Positions 57,218 through 64,000 of a stretch of 64,000 bases of DNA are shown one piece after another. The position numbers and the translations under genes were made by a program. This DNA is from Aquipuribacter nitratireducens. Its GTDB lineage: Bacteria; Actinomycetota; Actinomycetes; Actinomycetales; JBBAYJ01. Position 1 is the stretch's first letter. Each line of letters opens with the position of its first letter. The DNA lies in NCBI RefSeq assembly GCF_037860835.1, contig NZ_JBBEOG010000009.1:62001-126000 (forward strand), written 5' to 3'. Under the pieces are notes generated by a model. It saw nothing but the letters and a program-made list of their open reading frames with translations. It was not told where the DNA came from and did not search any database.

Positions 57218-58108
57218 ATGGTGCGGACCGTGCCCCCCTCGATGCCCGTGCCGGTGGCCCCGGCCGACCCTGCGTGCGTGGCGGAGCAGGTCGAGCGTGC
57301 CCGCGACGTCCTCGCGGGCGGTGGTGTCGTGGCGCTCACGGGCGCGGGGCTCAGCACGGACTCCGGCATCCCCGACTACCGCGGACCCGGCTCCCCGCGC
57401 CGCACGCCGATGACGTACCAGGACTTCACCCGCAGCGACGCCGCCCGTCGCCGGTACTGGGCCCGCAGCCACGTCGGCTGGCACCGGATGGCGGCCGCGG
57501 CCCCCAACGACGGGCACCGGGCCCTGGCCGCGCTCGGCGCCGCCGGCGTCGTCGACGCCGTCATCACCCAGAACGTCGACGGGCTGCACGGGCAGGCGGG
57601 CTCGGCCCGGGTCGTCGAGCTCCACGGTGCGCTCGCCCGCGTGGTCTGCCTCGACTGCCGGGCGCTGTCCCCCCGCCGCCGTCTCCACGAGCGGCTCGCG
57701 GTCGCCAACCCGGGGTGGGCGGAGCGGACGGACGTCCCGGAGGCGGACGTCGCCCCGGACGGGGACGTCGTCATCGACGACACCGCCGACTTCACCGTCG
57801 TGCCGTGCGAGACCTGCGGCGGCGTGCTGAAACCCGACGTCGTGTTCTTCGGGGAGAACGTGCCCCCACCGCGGGTGGCCGAGTGCTACGAGATGGTCGA
57901 CGGCGCCCGGGCCCTGCTCGTGGCGGGGACGTCGTGCACCGTGTTCTCGGGCCGCCGGTTCGTCAAGCGCGCTGCCTCGCTCGGGCTTCCGGTCGTGGTC
58001 GTCAACCGCGGCCCGACCCGGGCCGCGGAGCACGCCACGGTGCACGTCGACGCCGGCTGCTCCGACACGCTCGCCCGGCTGGTCGGTCACCTCGGGGCGG
58101 CGGCGTGA
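57218..58108 (+). CDS. Sir2-family NAD-dependent protein deacylase
   Basis: A 296-residue sirtuin. NAD-binding motifs are VVALTGAGLSTDSGIPDYRG, ITQNVDGLH and VAGTS; the catalytic His is in VVELHGAL. The four-cysteine zinc site is CLDC and CETCGG. Between them is an insertion with a run of acidic residues (DVAPDGDVVIDDTAD). It removes acyl groups from lysines, coupling metabolism to protein activity. ATG 57218 has TACCCT 7 nt upstream (leaderless). Confidence 0.93.
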   Translation: MVRTVPPSMPVPVAPADPACVAEQVERARDVLAGGGVVALTGAGLSTDSGIPDYRGPGSPRRTPMTYQDFTRSDAARRRYWARSHVGWHRMAAAAPNDGHRALAALGAAGVVDAVITQNVDGLHGQAGSARVVELHGALARVVCLDCRALSPRRRLHERLAVANPGWAERTDVPEADVAPDGDVVIDDTADFTVVPCETCGGVLKPDVVFFGENVPPPRVAECYEMVDGARALLVAGTSCTVFSGRRFVKRAASLGLPVVVVNRGPTRAAEHATVHVDAGCSDTLARLVGHLGAAA

Positions 58109-58126: not shown

Positions 58127-61100
58127 CTACGGCGTGACGGCGCGGTGCCGGCGGGCACGTCGGCCGGTCCGCACCGGCACGATCTCGCCGACCAGCGCCT
58201 CGGTCTCCGGCTGCAGGTCGACCCCGAGGTCGTCGGCGTATGCGCGGAGCCGCTCGGCGAGCTCGGCGACGGCGACGGGGCGCCCCGCCGCGTGCTCCGC
58301 GCGAAGGAGGTCCCGCCACAGGACCTCGGCGGCGGAGTCGACGCGCATGCCCGCGCGAGCGGCCCTGCGGGCGAGGTCCGGGCGGTCGGCGACCAGGGCG
58401 CGTCGCGCCGCCTCGTGCGCGACGTCGACGACCCCGGCGAGGATGTCCTCCCGCAGCGGCTCCGCCCACGTGTAGTGACGTTCCACCACGCCCGCGAACG
58501 GCGCGTCGACGAGCTCGAGCGCTGCGACGAGCACCTCGACGGGGCTGCTGGTGACGTCCGGGCCGAGCAGTGCCTGCCAGCGCTCCCAGTCCGTCGTGAC
58601 GTCGGCGTGGACGCTGTAGCTGCCGGAGTCGACCGCGCGCGGGAGGTACGGCCTCCCCTCCTCGTCGTCCCCGAGCCACCGCCGGGTGCGGGAGGCGAGG
58701 GCGTGGACCGTCTGCTCCGTGAGCCGTCGGGTGGGTGACAGCGCCTCGGCGACCTGTGTCCGCGTCCTGGGGCCGTCACTGGACGCGAGGTAGGCGAGCA
58801 GGGCCGTCGCACGGGCCGTGTGGCTGGCCGGTGCGGGCCCGCGGGCGCCGTGGACCTGCACGGTGCCGAGCAGCTGTACGACGGGCACGTCACCACCGAC
58901 GAGGTCGTCACGGGTCGGGAGCCTGGGCGGGGCGACGGGGGCGGCGACCTCGCGGCTCGAGGGGAGCGGGGCGTCGACGGAGGGTGGTGGTCCCGACCCG
59001 AGCCGACGCCCCCACGCCGGCCCGCGCATCGTCGCCGTCGGTGCCTGCAGGGCCGCGAGGCGTCGGGCGTCCTCCAGCACGAGCCGCTGCGGGCGCAGTG
59101 CCACCCCCGCGGGCTCGAGCACCCCCCAGCCGGAGGACCCCTCCTCGACCGCGGCGCTGGCCGAGTCGTCGAGCCGCAGCCGCCACCGTCCGTCCCGCGC
59201 GGCCACGTCGGGTGGACCCGCGAGGACCAGGCAGATGCCCGCCCGCGAGAGCCGGGGGACGAGCGCGGCGAGCGACTGCTCGTGCCGGGCCACGTCGTCC
59301 GGGTCACCGATCAGGACGACCTGGCAGTCCCAGGCCTCGTGCGCCCGGTCCGCGGCACGGGCGGCGGCGACGCTGTCCACACCGGCGGCGGCCAGGACCC
59401 GCTCGACGTCGTCGGCGCGGGCCGCCAGCTCGGTGAGGACGTGCTCCACGCGCTCCACGTGGCGGACGGCGCCTCCGGGGACGGCGTCGACCACTTCACG
59501 CCCGGAGCCGACGAGCAGCACCTCGACGGTGTCCCGGCTGCGACCCATCGCGAGCTCCGCCGCGAGGGCGCCGAGCACAGCACGGGACCCGGCCGCGCTG
59601 CCCACGACCTCGAGCACCCCGACACGCTCGAGATCGAGCAGGACGAGGCCGTCGTCGTCGTCGCTGCCGAGACACACCAGCCCCGGCAGGAGCGGCGGCA
59701 GGTCGGACGGCTCCGGGGGCGGCGACGCCGCACCGGTGAGCAGGTCGAGCCCGAGCTCCTCCACCAGACGCCTCGCCGGGGTCTCCGTGTCGACGTCGGC
59801 GAACGCGACCGACCAGACCGTCCGCTCGTCGAGGCACACCCAGGGGGCCGGGAGGTCGGCGGGCTCGACGAGGTACAGCTCGAGGTCCTCGCGCGTCAGC
59901 CGCGCGGCGCGTACCGCCGGCAGGAGGAGGCCACGTGCCGCGAGCCGCCGCCGCAGGTCCTCGAGCGCCCGGTCGAGCTCGCTGGTCCTGGTGCCGGCGG
60001 CCACGGCCCGCAGCTGCTGCTCCAACAGCTGGTGCGGGGGCTCCGGCGGGGTGAGCCTCTCCCCGACCGCCCGGTCCTCGCGTGCGTCGCGCCGACGGAC
60101 GGCGAGGACCGTCACGGCAGCCGCCGCCAGGAGGCCCCCGATCCCGGCCGGGGTGGCGAGGTCGACGGTGTCGGCGTCCGGGTCGTCGAGCACCGTGCCG
60201 GCGGCCGGACCGTCGGTCGGCCCGGCCGGTGGATCCGCCGTGGCATCCGACTCCTCGCCGGCGTCCGCCAGGGCACCCCACGAGCCGGGCGGGTCGTCCG
60301 CGTCCGTGACGGCAGCGGCGTCGCCAGCGTCGCCCGACGGCGCCTCCGGGCCCGGCTCTGCTCGTGGATCGGGCGGCGGTTCCGCCGGCGGGCCCGTAGG
60401 AGGCGGCGGCACTGCCGGCACCGCCGGCACTGCCGGCACCGTCACGGTCCACCCGGGCACGATGAGGTCGGGGTCGACGAGACGGCGCCCGTCCGGCTGG
60501 AGCGTGTCGGCGCTCGCCTCGGCGAGCTCCGGCCACCGGTCGGCGTCACCGAGGTGCCGCGCGGCGATGCCGGACAGGGTGTCGCCGGGCGAGACGACGT
60601 GTCGCACGTCCGAGGCGACGCCCCTGGTGCCCTCGGCGGGCTCCCCCGGGACGAGGATCCGCCACCCCGGCTGCAGCGCCCCGTCGGCACCGAGGGAACC
60701 GCCGCCGGGCTGTGGTGTCCCGAGGTTCGCCTCGGCCAGGTCGCGCCAGCGGTGGCCGTCACCGAGGTGGCGCTCGGCCAGGGACCACAGGCTGTCGCCC
60801 CGCTGCACCGTGACGGCGAGGGCACTCTGCACGGCCGCGTCGGGCGCCCCCGTGGCCCCGGCGGGCACGGCGTCGTCGCCGCGGTCGCCCCCACCGACCG
60901 GCACCTCCGTGGGGGCCGAGGCGGGTGGAGGCGCCGACGCACCCCCGGCGCGGGGGCCGACGTCGGTCGCCGCGGCCGGTCCGGCCGCCACCCCACCGAC
61001 CACGAGCGCGACGACGGCACCGACGAGCACCGAGGCGGCCCGCTGCTGGAGCGTGAGCCCGGGGACGCGGGGGGCCGGCAGCCCGCGCATGTGCGCGGGC

Positions 61101-61324
61101 ACGTCGAGGAGCACTGCCAGAGCAAAGGACCCCCACGCCACCCAACCGACGAGGGTGAGGGCAGCGAGCAGCAGGGTGCCGTCGTCCGGGCGCAGCAGGC
61201 GGTCGACGAGCTCGCCGGGCGAGCCCGACGGGAACGGCGCCCCGACGTGCCACAGGACGGCCGGGATCCCGACGAGCACCACGAGGAGCAGCAGCAGCGC
61301 GAGCAGCCCGCGGACCAGCCTCAT
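58127..61324 (-). CDS. LysM and BTAD domain membrane regulator of the Tad locus
   Basis: A 1,065-residue protein. Three hydrophobic helices (about 5-27, 50-75, 96-118), two LysM modules (about 170-226, with VQRGDSLWSLAERHLGDG, and 241-298, with VSPGDTLSGIAARHLGDA), a Pro-rich spacer, a fourth helix (about 392-411), and a long cytoplasmic part ending in a SARP-like winged helix and BTAD (about 840-1060). Such fusions are found in Flp/Tad pilus loci of actinobacteria and may link the cell wall to transcription. The first 118 residues may be exported. ATG 61324 follows GGAGG. Tandem 9-bp repeats near 60411-60440 code an AVP series. Confidence 0.87.
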   Translation of the reverse strand: MRLVRGLLALLLLLVVLVGIPAVLWHVGAPFPSGSPGELVDRLLRPDDGTLLLAALTLVGWVAWGSFALAVLLDVPAHMRGLPAPRVPGLTLQQRAASVLVGAVVALVVGGVAAGPAAATDVGPRAGGASAPPPASAPTEVPVGGGDRGDDAVPAGATGAPDAAVQSALAVTVQRGDSLWSLAERHLGDGHRWRDLAEANLGTPQPGGGSLGADGALQPGWRILVPGEPAEGTRGVASDVRHVVSPGDTLSGIAARHLGDADRWPELAEASADTLQPDGRRLVDPDLIVPGWTVTVPAVPAVPAVPPPPTGPPAEPPPDPRAEPGPEAPSGDAGDAAAVTDADDPPGSWGALADAGEESDATADPPAGPTDGPAAGTVLDDPDADTVDLATPAGIGGLLAAAAVTVLAVRRRDAREDRAVGERLTPPEPPHQLLEQQLRAVAAGTRTSELDRALEDLRRRLAARGLLLPAVRAARLTREDLELYLVEPADLPAPWVCLDERTVWSVAFADVDTETPARRLVEELGLDLLTGAASPPPEPSDLPPLLPGLVCLGSDDDDGLVLLDLERVGVLEVVGSAAGSRAVLGALAAELAMGRSRDTVEVLLVGSGREVVDAVPGGAVRHVERVEHVLTELAARADDVERVLAAAGVDSVAAARAADRAHEAWDCQVVLIGDPDDVARHEQSLAALVPRLSRAGICLVLAGPPDVAARDGRWRLRLDDSASAAVEEGSSGWGVLEPAGVALRPQRLVLEDARRLAALQAPTATMRGPAWGRRLGSGPPPSVDAPLPSSREVAAPVAPPRLPTRDDLVGGDVPVVQLLGTVQVHGARGPAPASHTARATALLAYLASSDGPRTRTQVAEALSPTRRLTEQTVHALASRTRRWLGDDEEGRPYLPRAVDSGSYSVHADVTTDWERWQALLGPDVTSSPVEVLVAALELVDAPFAGVVERHYTWAEPLREDILAGVVDVAHEAARRALVADRPDLARRAARAGMRVDSAAEVLWRDLLRAEHAAGRPVAVAELAERLRAYADDLGVDLQPETEALVGEIVPVRTGRRARRHRAVTP

Positions 61325-61376: not shown

Positions 61377-61829
61377 TCACGTCACTCCCTGCGCGAGCCG
61401 TGCCGTGGCGGAGCCCTCGATAGTCGCGGGTCCGCCGAGGAAGACAGGGTCGTGGACGACCCTGGTCGTGACACGGACGGCGGCGACGACGCCCGCAGGG
61501 GTGGGGACGCTCGTCGTGGTGACGGTGCCCTCGACACCCGCCGCCCGCAGGTGAGCGCGGGCCGCAGCCACGGCGCGGCCGATGTCGAGCGCGCCGGGGT
61601 CCCCCCGGACCGCCCGGGCCCTGTCGAGCTCCTGCCCCGCCGCACGCGCGGCCTCCGCCGCGACGGCGTCCGCCCGCTGCAGCGCCTGCACGCGTCCCGC
61701 CCCGTCCGTCACGAGACCCGTGGCGACGAGCAGCGCCGTGGCGAGGACGACGACGAAGAGGGTGGTGGACCCGCGGTCCTCGCGGAGCCGGTGCACCACC
61801 GGGACCGCGACGCCCTCTGCCCTGCTCAC
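61377..61829 (-). CDS. TadE/TadG-like pseudopilin
   Basis: A 150-residue pilus-assembly protein with a class III-like N-terminus (DRGSTTLFVVVLATALLVAT) after a 19-residue basic leader, then an exported region with AVAAEAARAAGQELDRARA. Such proteins (often annotated Rv3654c-type) are minor components of Flp pili. GTG 61829 overlaps the stop of the previous tadE (GTGA). Confidence 0.8.
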   Translation of the reverse strand: MSRAEGVAVPVVHRLREDRGSTTLFVVVLATALLVATGLVTDGAGRVQALQRADAVAAEAARAAGQELDRARAVRGDPGALDIGRAVAAARAHLRAAGVEGTVTTTSVPTPAGVVAAVRVTTRVVHDPVFLGGPATIEGSATARLAQGVT

Positions 61830-62284
61830 CGGCGCACCCGGTAGGTGTCGAGCGGCGAGACGGCCTCGGCCGTCAGCCGGGTGCTGCCGGGCACCCCCGG
61901 CAGTGCGAGGTCGGACAGCCGGACGTCGCAGCCGACGCTCGCCGTCACGAGCGCGCTGGTCCCGACCGGTCGGGCGAACTGGCTCGTGTCGACGTCGACG
62001 AGGACGTCGGCACACTGCAGCCCCTGCCCGTCCAGGTTGGCCCGCGCGGTGTCGCGGGCAGCCCTCGTCGCGTCGGCGGCGGAGCGCTCGAGGGACGCCT
62101 GTCGAGCGGCCGCCGCCGCGGCCGCCTCCACCGCGGTGCCCGCGAGGGCGACCCTGCCCGCGACCGCCAGCAGCCCCACCAGCAGGAGGAGACCCGGCAC
62201 GAGGAGGACGAACTCGAGGGTCGTCGTCCCCGCCTCCCGGCCGTGCCCCGGCCGGCGACCTCGTTCGCGTCGGGACCTCGTCAC
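61826..62284 (-). CDS. tadE: TadE-like pilus assembly protein
   Basis: A 152-residue pseudopilin. The N-terminal signature EAGTTTLEFVLLVPGLLLLV carries the TadE-like membrane segment with its Glu, and an exported part with paired cysteines (GLQCADVL and VGCDVRL) follows. GTG 62284 overlaps the stop of the preceding gene (GTGA), so the three tadE-type genes are translationally coupled. Confidence 0.86.
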   Translation of the reverse strand: MTRSRRERGRRPGHGREAGTTTLEFVLLVPGLLLLVGLLAVAGRVALAGTAVEAAAAAAARQASLERSAADATRAARDTARANLDGQGLQCADVLVDVDTSQFARPVGTSALVTASVGCDVRLSDLALPGVPGSTRLTAEAVSPLDTYRVRR

Positions 62285-62658
62285 GAGCCGGTCACCCGCT
62301 CGACGGGCCCCGACGCGGTCTGCGCGACGCGTGGCCCGGGAACCCCGGGCAGCAGCGACGGCGCTCGTCCCGCGACGGTGATGCTCGCCTGCACCGGCCC
62401 CCGCACACCGGACACCTCGATGTCGTCGAGGACCGCGTCGCCCCCTGCGCGGACGACGAAGTCCGTGGCCGCCGCGCGCCCGACCTGCACCGTGCCGGTC
62501 TCGGTCCGGGCGACCGCGACCCCGCTGCCGGCGGCCGCGAGTGCGACGGTGCGCGCGTGGTACCACAGCACCCCCTGGACGACGCCGAAGACGATGAGGA
62601 GCATCGCGGGGAACAGCACGACGAGCTCGAGCGTCGTGCTCCCGCGGTCGTGACTCAG
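62281..62658 (-). CDS. TadE-like pseudopilin with a probable CTG start
   Basis: A 125-residue pseudopilin with HDRGSTTLELVVLFPAMLLI and an exported part (ALAAAGSGVAVARTETG). No ATG or GTG lies in frame between the flp stop and the hydrophobic segment. The first usable codon is CTG 62658, which overlaps the flp stop as CTGA, the same geometry as the GTGA junctions in this operon. The start is inferred from this. Confidence 0.75.
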   Translation of the reverse strand: MSHDRGSTTLELVVLFPAMLLIVFGVVQGVLWYHARTVALAAAGSGVAVARTETGTVQVGRAAATDFVVRAGGDAVLDDIEVSGVRGPVQASITVAGRAPSLLPGVPGPRVAQTASGPVERVTGS

Positions 62659-62891
62659 GTGAGCTGCGACAGCCGGTCGTTCACCACGGCGTTGATGGCC
62701 GCCACCGCGAGCCCTGCGACCAGGAAGAGACCGAGGGCGATGACGACCCACTCGATCGTCGTGAAGCCGGCGTCCCGCTGCGACGGGTGCCGGGTGCCGG
62801 TCGACGGGCCCGGTCGGACCCGGCCGCTCGAGAGGCGGCCGAGGATCAGCAGGGACGCGAGGACGTGCAGCCTCAGGGTCAGGTCGTGCAT
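62655..62891 (-). CDS. flp: Flp-type major pilin
   Basis: A 78-residue prepilin. A long leader of about 40 residues is followed by the class III prepilin cleavage region DAGFTTIEWVVIALGLF (Gly before Phe; Glu at +5 of the mature form) and a short hydrophobic pilin (AGLAVAAINAVVND). A strong RBS, GGAGGAGGA, lies 6 nt upstream of ATG 62891, consistent with high expression of the main pilus subunit. Confidence 0.88.
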   Translation of the reverse strand: MHDLTLRLHVLASLLILGRLSSGRVRPGPSTGTRHPSQRDAGFTTIEWVVIALGLFLVAGLAVAAINAVVNDRLSQLT

Positions 62892-62936
62892 GGGATTCCT
62901 CCTCCTCCGGCGCGACGGCCGGCGCGGTGGTGCCCG

Positions 62937-63827
62937 TCACAGGATCTCCAGGACGGCGGGGGTGAACAGCAGCAGCGAGAAGACGAGACCGAGGGCGGCG
63001 ACAGGGACCCCGAGGCTCTGGGTGGTGGCGTTGGCGCGGGCCTGCTCCTTCGACAGCAGCTCCGCCCGCAAGCCACGACCGCGGGCACGCAGCGCCTCGT
63101 ACACCGACCCGCCGTCCTCACCGGCGAGACGCACGATGTCCGCCGTCTCCTCCAAGGCCGGCACCCCGAGCTCGGTGGCCAGCTCGCCGAGCCCCGTCCA
63201 GGGGGCGGTCCCCGCGAGCTGCGCCCGGACCAGCTCCTGCCGAATCCGGACGAAGGGCCACGCGTCGGCGACGGTCGCGGCGCGCGTGAGGGCCTGCGTC
63301 GGCCCGCTCCCCGCACGTCGCTCGAGCGCGACCAGCTCGAGGTAGGCCCCGACGGCCCGAGCGAACTCGTCCCGCGCCCGCGCGGCCCTCGCGCGCACGC
63401 TGAGGTCGGGGAGGTGGAACAGCGCGAGCGCGAGGCCGAGCGAGGCGACTGCGGGGACGGCGAGCGGCACCGCCAGGCCGACCCAGCGGAACAGGAGCGT
63501 CGCCACCGGCGGGAACGCGAGACCGATGAGACCGAGCAGTGCCTTCTCGCCGAGGAACTCCCCGGCCGGCACGCGGAGGACCGCCAGGTCGCGGGTCGGC
63601 ACGCTCACCAGCGGCAGGCGGTCGCTCCGCCGGACGAGCCCCTCCCCCAGACGGGTCTGGAGCGACCGCCGACCGCCGACGGCCGTGGCCGGCGTGCGTT
63701 GCGTCCGCAGCCGCTCGAGTGCGTCGTCCAGCCTGGGGCTGGACGGGACCAGCTCGCGGACGACGAGGAAGAGGCCGAGGCCCCCCAGGGCGCCGGCGAC
63801 CAGAGCCGCCTGCAGCGTGACGGGCAC
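62937..63827 (-). CDS. tadC: Flp pilus assembly membrane protein TadC
   Basis: A 296-residue type II secretion F-like protein. It has an N-terminal helix (VTLQAALVAGALGGLGLFLV), a pair of helices around residue 100-140, the cytoplasmic GSPF-like domain (DEFARAVGAYLELVALERRAGSG then ELGVPALEETADIVRLAGED) and a C-terminal helix (LGLVFSLLLFTPAVLEI). The motif strings are split here for length. GTG 63827 starts one base after the tadB stop. Confidence 0.92.
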   Translation of the reverse strand: MPVTLQAALVAGALGGLGLFLVVRELVPSSPRLDDALERLRTQRTPATAVGGRRSLQTRLGEGLVRRSDRLPLVSVPTRDLAVLRVPAGEFLGEKALLGLIGLAFPPVATLLFRWVGLAVPLAVPAVASLGLALALFHLPDLSVRARAARARDEFARAVGAYLELVALERRAGSGPTQALTRAATVADAWPFVRIRQELVRAQLAGTAPWTGLGELATELGVPALEETADIVRLAGEDGGSVYEALRARGRGLRAELLSKEQARANATTQSLGVPVAALGLVFSLLLFTPAVLEIL

Positions 63828-63828
63828 G

Positions 63829-64000
63829 TCACCGCCCCCCGACGTCGGCCGCCGGTGCACCGGCCGGGCTCTGGGCGGTCTCCGCGGCGGTGAGGAAGCG
63901 CGGTGTCGTCGCGCCCGCGGTGACGGCCCTCATCCACACCAGGCAGCCGACGAAGAGCCCGAGCAGGACGACGAGGATGACCTGGCCGGCGCCGGCGAGG
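63829..64000 (-). CDS. tadB: Flp pilus assembly protein TadB (C-terminal end)
   Basis: Only the last 56 codons are in the window; the gene continues past base 64000. The visible part is a hydrophobic helix (QVILVVLLGLFVGCLVWMRA) and a Pro/Ala-rich tail. Position directly before tadC and the helix pattern fit TadB. A single base separates its stop from the tadC start. Confidence 0.8.
   Translation of the reverse strand, partial: LAGAGQVILVVLLGLFVGCLVWMRAVTAGATTPRFLTAAETAQSPAGAPAADVGGR

Follow-up and report, generated by a model that had tools for sequence, protein, structure and literature searches.

A LysM-BTAD membrane protein of actinobacterial Tad operons as a candidate wall-anchored assembly hub

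Introduction

What role does a protein that joins peptidoglycan-binding modules, membrane helices and a transcription-factor-type module play in a pilus operon? The question is raised by the gene at 58127-61324 on the minus strand of a 64,000 nucleotide stretch of the Aquipuribacter nitratireducens genome (NCBI RefSeq assembly GCF_037860835.1, contig NZ_JBBEOG010000009.1, positions 62,001 to 126,000), referred to here as the window. The open reading frame (ORF) has an ATG start, encodes the 1065 aa LysM-BTAD protein and lies in an operon for a Tad pilus. An initial annotation, made from the sequence, suggested that the protein could pass cell-wall status directly to the transcription of pilus genes. 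In the present analysis a wall-anchored assembly hub of the Tad machine is favoured over such a wall-to-DNA signalling regulator, with a probability of about one half. It may keep the pilus machine in position, serve as a reporter on that machine, or do both.

Domain architecture and membrane topology

The features of the gene are as follows, in window coordinates and in order from the N-terminus of the protein.

58127-61324, minus strand: whole gene, 1065 aa, last in the Tad operon of the A. nitratireducens genome; the next downstream gene is on the opposite strand
61244-61321, minus strand: transmembrane (TM) helix 1, residues 2-27, from model and hydropathy
61085-61177, minus strand: TM helix 2, residues 50-80, from model and hydropathy
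60989-61054, minus strand: TM helix 3, residues 91-112, from model and hydropathy
60647-60811, minus strand: LysM module 1, residues 172-226, from Pfam and model
60431-60613, minus strand: LysM module 2, residues 238-298, from Pfam and model; full length in 8 of 8 homologs compared domain by domain
60149-60430, minus strand: disordered Pro/acidic linker, predicted to be outside the membrane, residues 299-392; predicted local distance difference test score (pLDDT) <50 over most of it
60074-60145, minus strand: TM helix 4, residues about 394-417 and 397-417 in the model, from model and hydropathy; 5 acidic residues on the N flank and 6 basic residues on the C flank
59039-59986, minus strand: FtsK/EccC-type domain without a working P-loop, with stalk helix, residues 447-762, from fold and profile comparisons
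59579-59602, minus strand: remnant Walker A motif, GSAAGSRA compared with GxxGxGK[ST], residues 575-582, from alignment; FtsK motif as in PMC11154593
58595-58891, minus strand: winged helix of the SARP module, residues 812-910, from profile and fold match
58673-58717, minus strand: recognition helix, residues 870-884, from model and mapping onto AfsR
58169-58594, minus strand: BTAD with TPR-like helices, residues 911-1052, from profile and fold match

The Pfam match to LysM (PF01476, E 1.2e-11) covers two stretches of the protein. The Pfam BTAD family gave no match in the window protein itself, PF03704 matching 6 of 30 homologs at E values up to 0.1, and the BTAD was assigned by profile and fold instead. 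The 30 homologs were picked for variety, and 28 of them were used in two further alignments. A profile of 28 homologs matches EmbR (2fez) with an E value of 1.8e-15, spanning the winged helix and the BTAD. In the predicted structure, residues 812-1053 superimpose on AfsR (8k60; Z 14.8, 223 residues, root-mean-square deviation (rmsd) 3.8) and on EmbR (2fez; Z 14.4). By profile and fold, the C-terminal part is a winged helix followed by a BTAD, as in the SARP regulators.

An AlphaFold2 model built with the 30 homologs has three TM helices, two LysM modules, the disordered linker, TM helix 4 with its stalk and two cytoplasmic domains, in this order. Both LysM folds are mostly at pLDDT >90 and the mean is 77.5, with a predicted template modelling score of 0.61 that leaves the mutual placement of the domains unsure. 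With the hydropathy cut-off applied, 24 of the 30 homologs show TM helix 4, and in each of these its C flank has 4 to 9 basic residues; the 6 rows that lack it at this cut-off are all of the Micromonosporaceae type. Basic residues are also present after TM helix 2 and before TM helix 3 in most of the 30 rows. This charge bias around the TM segments supports the prediction that the LysM modules are outside and that the FtsK-like and SARP domains are inside.

The initial annotation had described LysM modules, membrane helices and a BTAD in one chain, within a Tad operon. The chain is borne out by the Pfam LysM matches, by the EmbR profile and the AfsR/EmbR fold for the BTAD, and by the four TM helices of the model; the operon is confirmed by TadA, TadB, TadC and TadE matches upstream on the same strand. 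Its assumption of LysM modules outside and a winged helix inside agrees with the charge bias, as a prediction. The domain list was correct in these parts and overlooked the FtsK/EccC-type domain between TM helix 4 and the SARP module.

The FtsK/EccC-type domain

The overlooked domain, residues 447-762, was also folded alone (pLDDT 83). Foldseek matches it to FtsK both in the whole model (E 1.8e-7) and as the separate domain (E 1.7e-9). The latter aligns with FtsK (2ius) at Z 17.7 and rmsd 3.8 over 230 residues, with EccCb1-D2 at Z 16.8 and with the EccC5 DUF domain at Z 13.3; RecA-type proteins have Z values of 11.1 or less. Residues 447-762 are thus predicted to have an FtsK-type motor fold. 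The sequence evidence for FtsK/EccC kinship is weak and agrees in direction with the fold. EccC5 (E 1.2) was the only PDB match of the domain profile up to E 10. With hhalign, domain D2 of a neighbouring EccC-like protein was matched at a probability of 67 (E 5e-5), the Walker A regions being aligned but for one gap, and two other domains of that protein at 17 and 2.5.

Of 67 profile-aligned rows, the window included, none has a lysine in the P-loop Lys column, 54 have an arginine there and 1 has a Ser or Thr directly after it. Two of the rows in this alignment, L067 and L068, overlap. The Walker A motif GxxGxGK[ST] (PMC11154593) is not present in any of the 67. On this alignment, the domain is read as having a dead Walker A motif and a lost P-loop.

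Association with Tad operons

A genome scan identified 63 relatives, which are actinobacterial by record title save for two Elusimicrobia LysM matches. All three domain types are present in 64 ORFs. Of these, 41 are Tad-linked, defined as having TadA or at least two Tad genes within the stretch examined; matches to the TadG query, which was out of frame, were not relied on. A TadE-type match is upstream of the LysM-BTAD gene in 40 of the 41. The remaining locus, L035 from a Propionibacteriaceae bacterium, has a different gene order, with TadE-type matches downstream. The 23 ORFs that are not Tad-linked are 19 copies of the Micromonosporaceae type and four (L008, L015, L030 and L067) on truncated or short loci, which belong to the acidic clade described below.

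The gene is also common on plasmids. There are 190 plasmid records that match the LysM-BTAD protein (E up to 1e-5) and 211 that match TadA (E up to 1e-20). By genus, the LysM-BTAD and TadA counts are 140 and 134 in Streptomyces, 6 and 6 in Micrococcus, 5 and 5 in Microbacterium, 19 and 29 in Rhodococcus, and 1 and 8 in Curtobacterium. The loci opened from the LysM-BTAD plasmid list (5 of 5) have, ahead of the LysM-BTAD gene, genes for a SAF protein, a TadA-type ATPase and TadB/TadC, together with TadE-type genes. The loci opened from the TadA plasmid list, with TadA identities of 35-52%, all (6 of 6) have a LysM gene after TadE-type genes, with all three domain types present, in broken frames in the case of L098. 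These 6 were opened from 24 TadA plasmids listed, of which 8 others are among the 40 LysM-BTAD plasmid matches listed. One of the 6, a Curtobacterium plasmid, is absent among the LysM-BTAD matches listed, and the LysM-BTAD search may therefore overlook divergent copies. On some plasmids the gene is not the last one, since prepilin peptidase genes directly follow it, and some plasmid loci have two small genes between the pilin genes and the LysM-BTAD gene.

The LysM-BTAD gene therefore has a steady place in Tad operons. Because it follows the TadE/TadG genes in operons of this type, its product looks like a machine part, and the gene looks like a structural member in the way that it accompanies the operon.

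Several features of individual loci were also seen. On the Ornithinimicrobium plasmid of L098 several reading frames are needed to cover the LysM-BTAD gene, and a number of the Tad genes are short, through either decay or sequencing error. Two Micromonosporaceae-type copies (L041:5374-9292 and L052:7754-9919) have Hsp70-like genes nearby and no Tad genes, and L041 and several other loci of this type have another BTAD-containing ORF, without LysM, in the same locus. Many acidic-clade copies among L001-L030, mostly from Nocardioides and also from Pimelobacter, are near-identical between species, with two acidic-clade copies each in N. oceani and in strain IC4_145. These near-identical and double copies suggest that a mobile element with this Tad operon on it has spread recently.

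DNA-contact residues of the SARP module

In AfsR the DNA is contacted by S46, Q48, W74, P79, S80, Q81, R87, T88, S91, R92, R94 and K95, of which Q48, W74, P79, T88, R94 and K95 are conserved among SARPs (PMC10936776). Mapping onto the window protein through EmbR finds W74, P79 and T88 changed and S91, R92 and R94 kept, with an arginine at position 95. The AfsR R94 column has an arginine in 65 of 65 rows. The K95 column is acidic (D or E) in 31 of 65 rows, all on one side of one branch with a support of 100 in the SH-aLRT branch test. The tree is a quick one, with the recognition columns left out, and its 65th row is L045, an ORF under the LysM threshold.

This acidic clade is largely a Tad-linked one: 27 of its 31 members are linked by the criterion of TadA or two genes, and the other 4 are those on truncated or short loci. 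Labels for Tad linkage were assigned to the tree by hand, and L008 is linked there while not being among the 41 of 64. DNA binding cannot be assumed for the whole family, because a Tad-linked clade is acidic at the K95 column. For that clade the change is an argument against DNA binding, though no proof that such binding is lacking. Other BTAD proteins of the same genome have A, R, R, K (L079), S, R, R, G (L080) and S, V, R, S (L081) at AfsR positions 91, 92, 94 and 95. Positions 92 and 95 thus vary in these proteins too, with none acidic, and the argument from the acidic change is weakened.

SARP-type 11-bp repeats before the operon, a putative target, are not in excess in a crude test of 35 upstream regions, each of up to 420 bp. 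The mean best 7-mer match is 5.29 at spacing 11, compared with 5.06-5.63 at spacings 8-15. No match to the canonical SARP recognition motif was found in the collected loci.

The Tad operon and its surroundings

Upstream of the LysM-BTAD gene and on the same strand, matches above the Pfam cut-offs were found for T2SSE (TadA), T2SSF twice (TadB and TadC) and TadE. A second TadE, a TadG-like gene and a SAF (CpaB) domain match below the cut-offs. The genes within the window are as follows.

61377-62015, minus strand: ORF with TadG-like gene (PF13400, E 0.0023, under the curated cut-off)
61826-62566, minus strand: ORF with TadE-like gene (PF07811, E 5.8e-4, under the curated cut-off)
62281-62940, minus strand: ORF with TadE-like gene (PF07811, E 1.8e-8)
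62655-62891, minus strand: Flp pilin candidate, 78 aa, with GFTTIEWVVIALGLF, spotted by eye
62937-63860, minus strand: TadC (T2SSF, E 4.1e-7)

The operon extends past the window end and was read further in locus L069, where the window position is the L069 position plus 55999. Ahead of CpaB is a 270-aa gene (L069:12172-12984, minus strand) with a C-terminal helix-turn-helix (HTH) that is possibly, and weakly, like sigma region 4. It has no Pfam match and its best PDB profile match is a sigma factor at E 0.55. It has relatives in the congener G002 (64%) and near the Tad operon of a Xylanimonas plasmid (29%). A role for this gene as a regulator is only suggestive. The sole stretch before CpaB that is common to the congener is a short one, GGTTAGCATCCGC / GGGTAGCATCCGC, which can be read as a putative -10 element. 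A search over the operon found no sigma-70 promoters and no terminators, which is uninformative at a GC content of about 77%.

Just upstream of the Tad operon are a 1490-aa FtsK/EccC-like ATPase (L069:13593-18065, minus strand) and a WXG100 protein (L069:13214-13510, plus strand; E 9.2e-15). Relatives of the two are upstream of the Tad operon in G002, with 62.7% and 80% identity respectively. On the other side, a Sir2-family gene (window 57218-58108, plus strand; E 6.4e-38) converges on the 3' end of the LysM-BTAD gene. Further T2SSE-type ATPases are present in the same genome (G000 C10, C2 and C5), two of which (L089 and L091) resemble the TadA of the operon. A search of this genome with the LysM-BTAD protein gave only the protein itself at E <=0.001, and phage records searched with it gave no match.

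Proposed role and alternatives

As a hub, the LysM-BTAD protein would belong to a widespread, often plasmid-borne, actinobacterial type of Tad pilus machine. The LysM pair would bind peptidoglycan and so fix the machine in the wall. Under the membrane, the EccC-like domain would act as a structural ring or adaptor beside TadA, TadB and TadC, a role modelled on that proposed for the EccC DUF domain in type VII secretion. The C-terminal SARP module would be a docking surface, and in some branches, including that of the window, it may still bind DNA. Peptidoglycan binding, docking to TadA/B/C and the EccC-like ring are inferred. The hub would serve the monoderm Tad machine as FimV serves the type IVa pili of P. 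aeruginosa, where FimV is required for midcell recruitment of pilus parts (PMC5285504).

Several observations weigh against this role. In P. putida, FimV is dispensable for pilus-dependent motility (PMC12918733). No Tad genes were found in the stretch examined for 19 of 21 full-length Micromonosporaceae-type copies, and the family is therefore not tied to pili. Two loci of the same genome with other TadA-like ATPases (L089 and L091) have no LysM-BTAD gene within about 10 kb, in the 20-kb stretches examined. The gene therefore marks a subtype, and Tad machines generally do not need it. The recognition helix of the window protein is basic, with S, R, R and R at AfsR positions 91, 92, 94 and 95, K95 being replaced by arginine. 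The point at which the acidic clade joins the tree may reflect a long-branch effect, as a warning of the tree program states. In comparison with the G002 copy, the winged helix is the best-kept domain, with 80% identity over 99 residues and 95% over the 21 residues of the recognition stretch; the LysM modules are at 66 and 72%, the BTAD at 75% and the EccC-like domain at 62%. This suggests that the winged helix is under constraint in this genus, and a winged helix kept better than an EccC-like domain at 62% is not what a mere scaffold predicts.

The main alternative, which extends the model of the initial annotation, is a membrane-tethered transcription factor. The LysM modules would sense either the wall or the assembled pilus, with the EccC-like domain as the relay, and the SARP module would switch on tad promoters, perhaps along with others, in the manner of AfsR and EmbR. 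The SARP fold of residues 812-1053, the basic recognition helix of the window's clade, the conservation of the winged helix and the predicted topology all fit such an activator, and AfsR is a SARP domain likewise controlled by a nucleotide-binding domain (PMC10936776). It is opposed by the loss of W74, P79 and T88 from the window copy, by the lack of 11-bp repeat excess and by the separate gene with a possible HTH that precedes the operon, as well as by the acidic K95 column of the Tad-linked clade, to the extent that the own-genome BTAD proteins leave that argument standing. The tethered activator is the less probable of the two and is tentatively kept alive for the window's clade. The winged helix of the initial annotation is real (EmbR profile, AfsR/EmbR fold), with basic residues at AfsR contact positions 92, 94 and 95. 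Its direct relay from LysM to BTAD is not simple, as an FtsK/EccC-type domain without a working P-loop intervenes. It is also conceivable, and somewhat more doubtful, that hub and activator are combined and that this single protein works as a relay across the envelope. The SARP activator would then be part of the pilus machine, LysM-anchored in peptidoglycan and gated by an EccC-type pseudo-ATPase instead of by nucleotide, with RNA polymerase directly reading wall attachment or completed Tad assembly; in one clade the relay would have become purely structural.

Two further explanations are improbable. The protein might serve its type VII-like neighbours and not the pilus, its EccC-like domain pairing with the upstream EccC-like ATPase and the WXG100 protein that are present in this genome and, as relatives, in G002. 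However, the Tad link holds across far more lineages, and a tblastn search of the collected loci, many of which have flanks of about 3 kb above the operon, matched the ATPase at its own locus alone, apart from a weak match at the FtsK of the genome (L076). Least probable is a decayed regulator kept merely as a wall anchor, with cytoplasmic domains that have no binding function. The dead Walker A motif and the variable recognition helix would be expected of it, but both cytoplasmic domains are present in 64 LysM ORFs, the AfsR R94 column is invariably arginine, and between the congeners conservation is higher in the winged helix than in the LysM modules.

A protein that accompanies this operon type, and combines modules for wall binding with a dead EccC-type domain and one of the transcription-factor type, is a natural candidate for an anchor or a checkpoint of monoderm actinobacterial Tad machines, which sit in a thick wall. 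Its one chain brings type VII secretion and SARP regulation together with Tad pili, and many actinobacterial plasmids encode it, 190 records being matched.

Comparison with known systems

The pairing of LysM and BTAD in a tad locus has been in print since 2013. PAGK_2369, on plasmid pIMPLE-HL096PA1 of Cutibacterium (Propionibacterium) acnes, has Pfam hits to both and is listed after three TadE genes (PMC3666418, Table 2). In the available part of that paper it is called only a TadB homolog, with no membrane topology or EccC-like domain described. LysM does not occur in the available text of PMC5696575 on C. acnes Flp plasmids. Among the openly licensed papers listed on LysM with BTAD or Tad, no functional study and no mention of an FtsK/EccC-like part was found, from which absence cannot be concluded. 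Of the 40 plasmid matches listed, most carry names after LysM alone.

AfsR and EmbR are soluble, with the SARP part at the N-terminus. They share the winged helix and BTAD fold with the window protein, where the SARP module is instead C-terminal, behind four TM helices, and has several AfsR DNA contacts changed. The membrane regulators of the CadC/ToxR type also have a winged helix and a TM segment in one chain. CadC has the reversed domain order relative to the window protein and is not known to have LysM modules. The homolog profile finds CadC weakly (5ju7, E 0.012), and its counterpart of the BTAD helices is periplasmic, by the title of the entry.

The likeness to EccC of type VII secretion is close in place and state. 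The EccC5 DUF domain is described as a degenerate ATPase domain beside the TM and stalk, without nucleotide binding (PMC11154593), and the window protein has a degenerate FtsK-type fold just after its TM helix and stalk. It differs in having LysM modules before this domain, and after it a SARP module in place of the further ATPase domains D1-D3.

The NCBIfam library includes FimV models, and no FimV family is among the 5 NCBIfam families found for the window protein up to E 1. The four TM helices and the EccC-like domain set it apart from FimV/HubP. FimV has LysM outside, a TM segment and a cytoplasmic part ending in TPR-type helices (PMC12918733), and the window protein has the same arrangement of external LysM, TM and a cytoplasmic TPR-type end, as far as its topology is predicted by charge bias.

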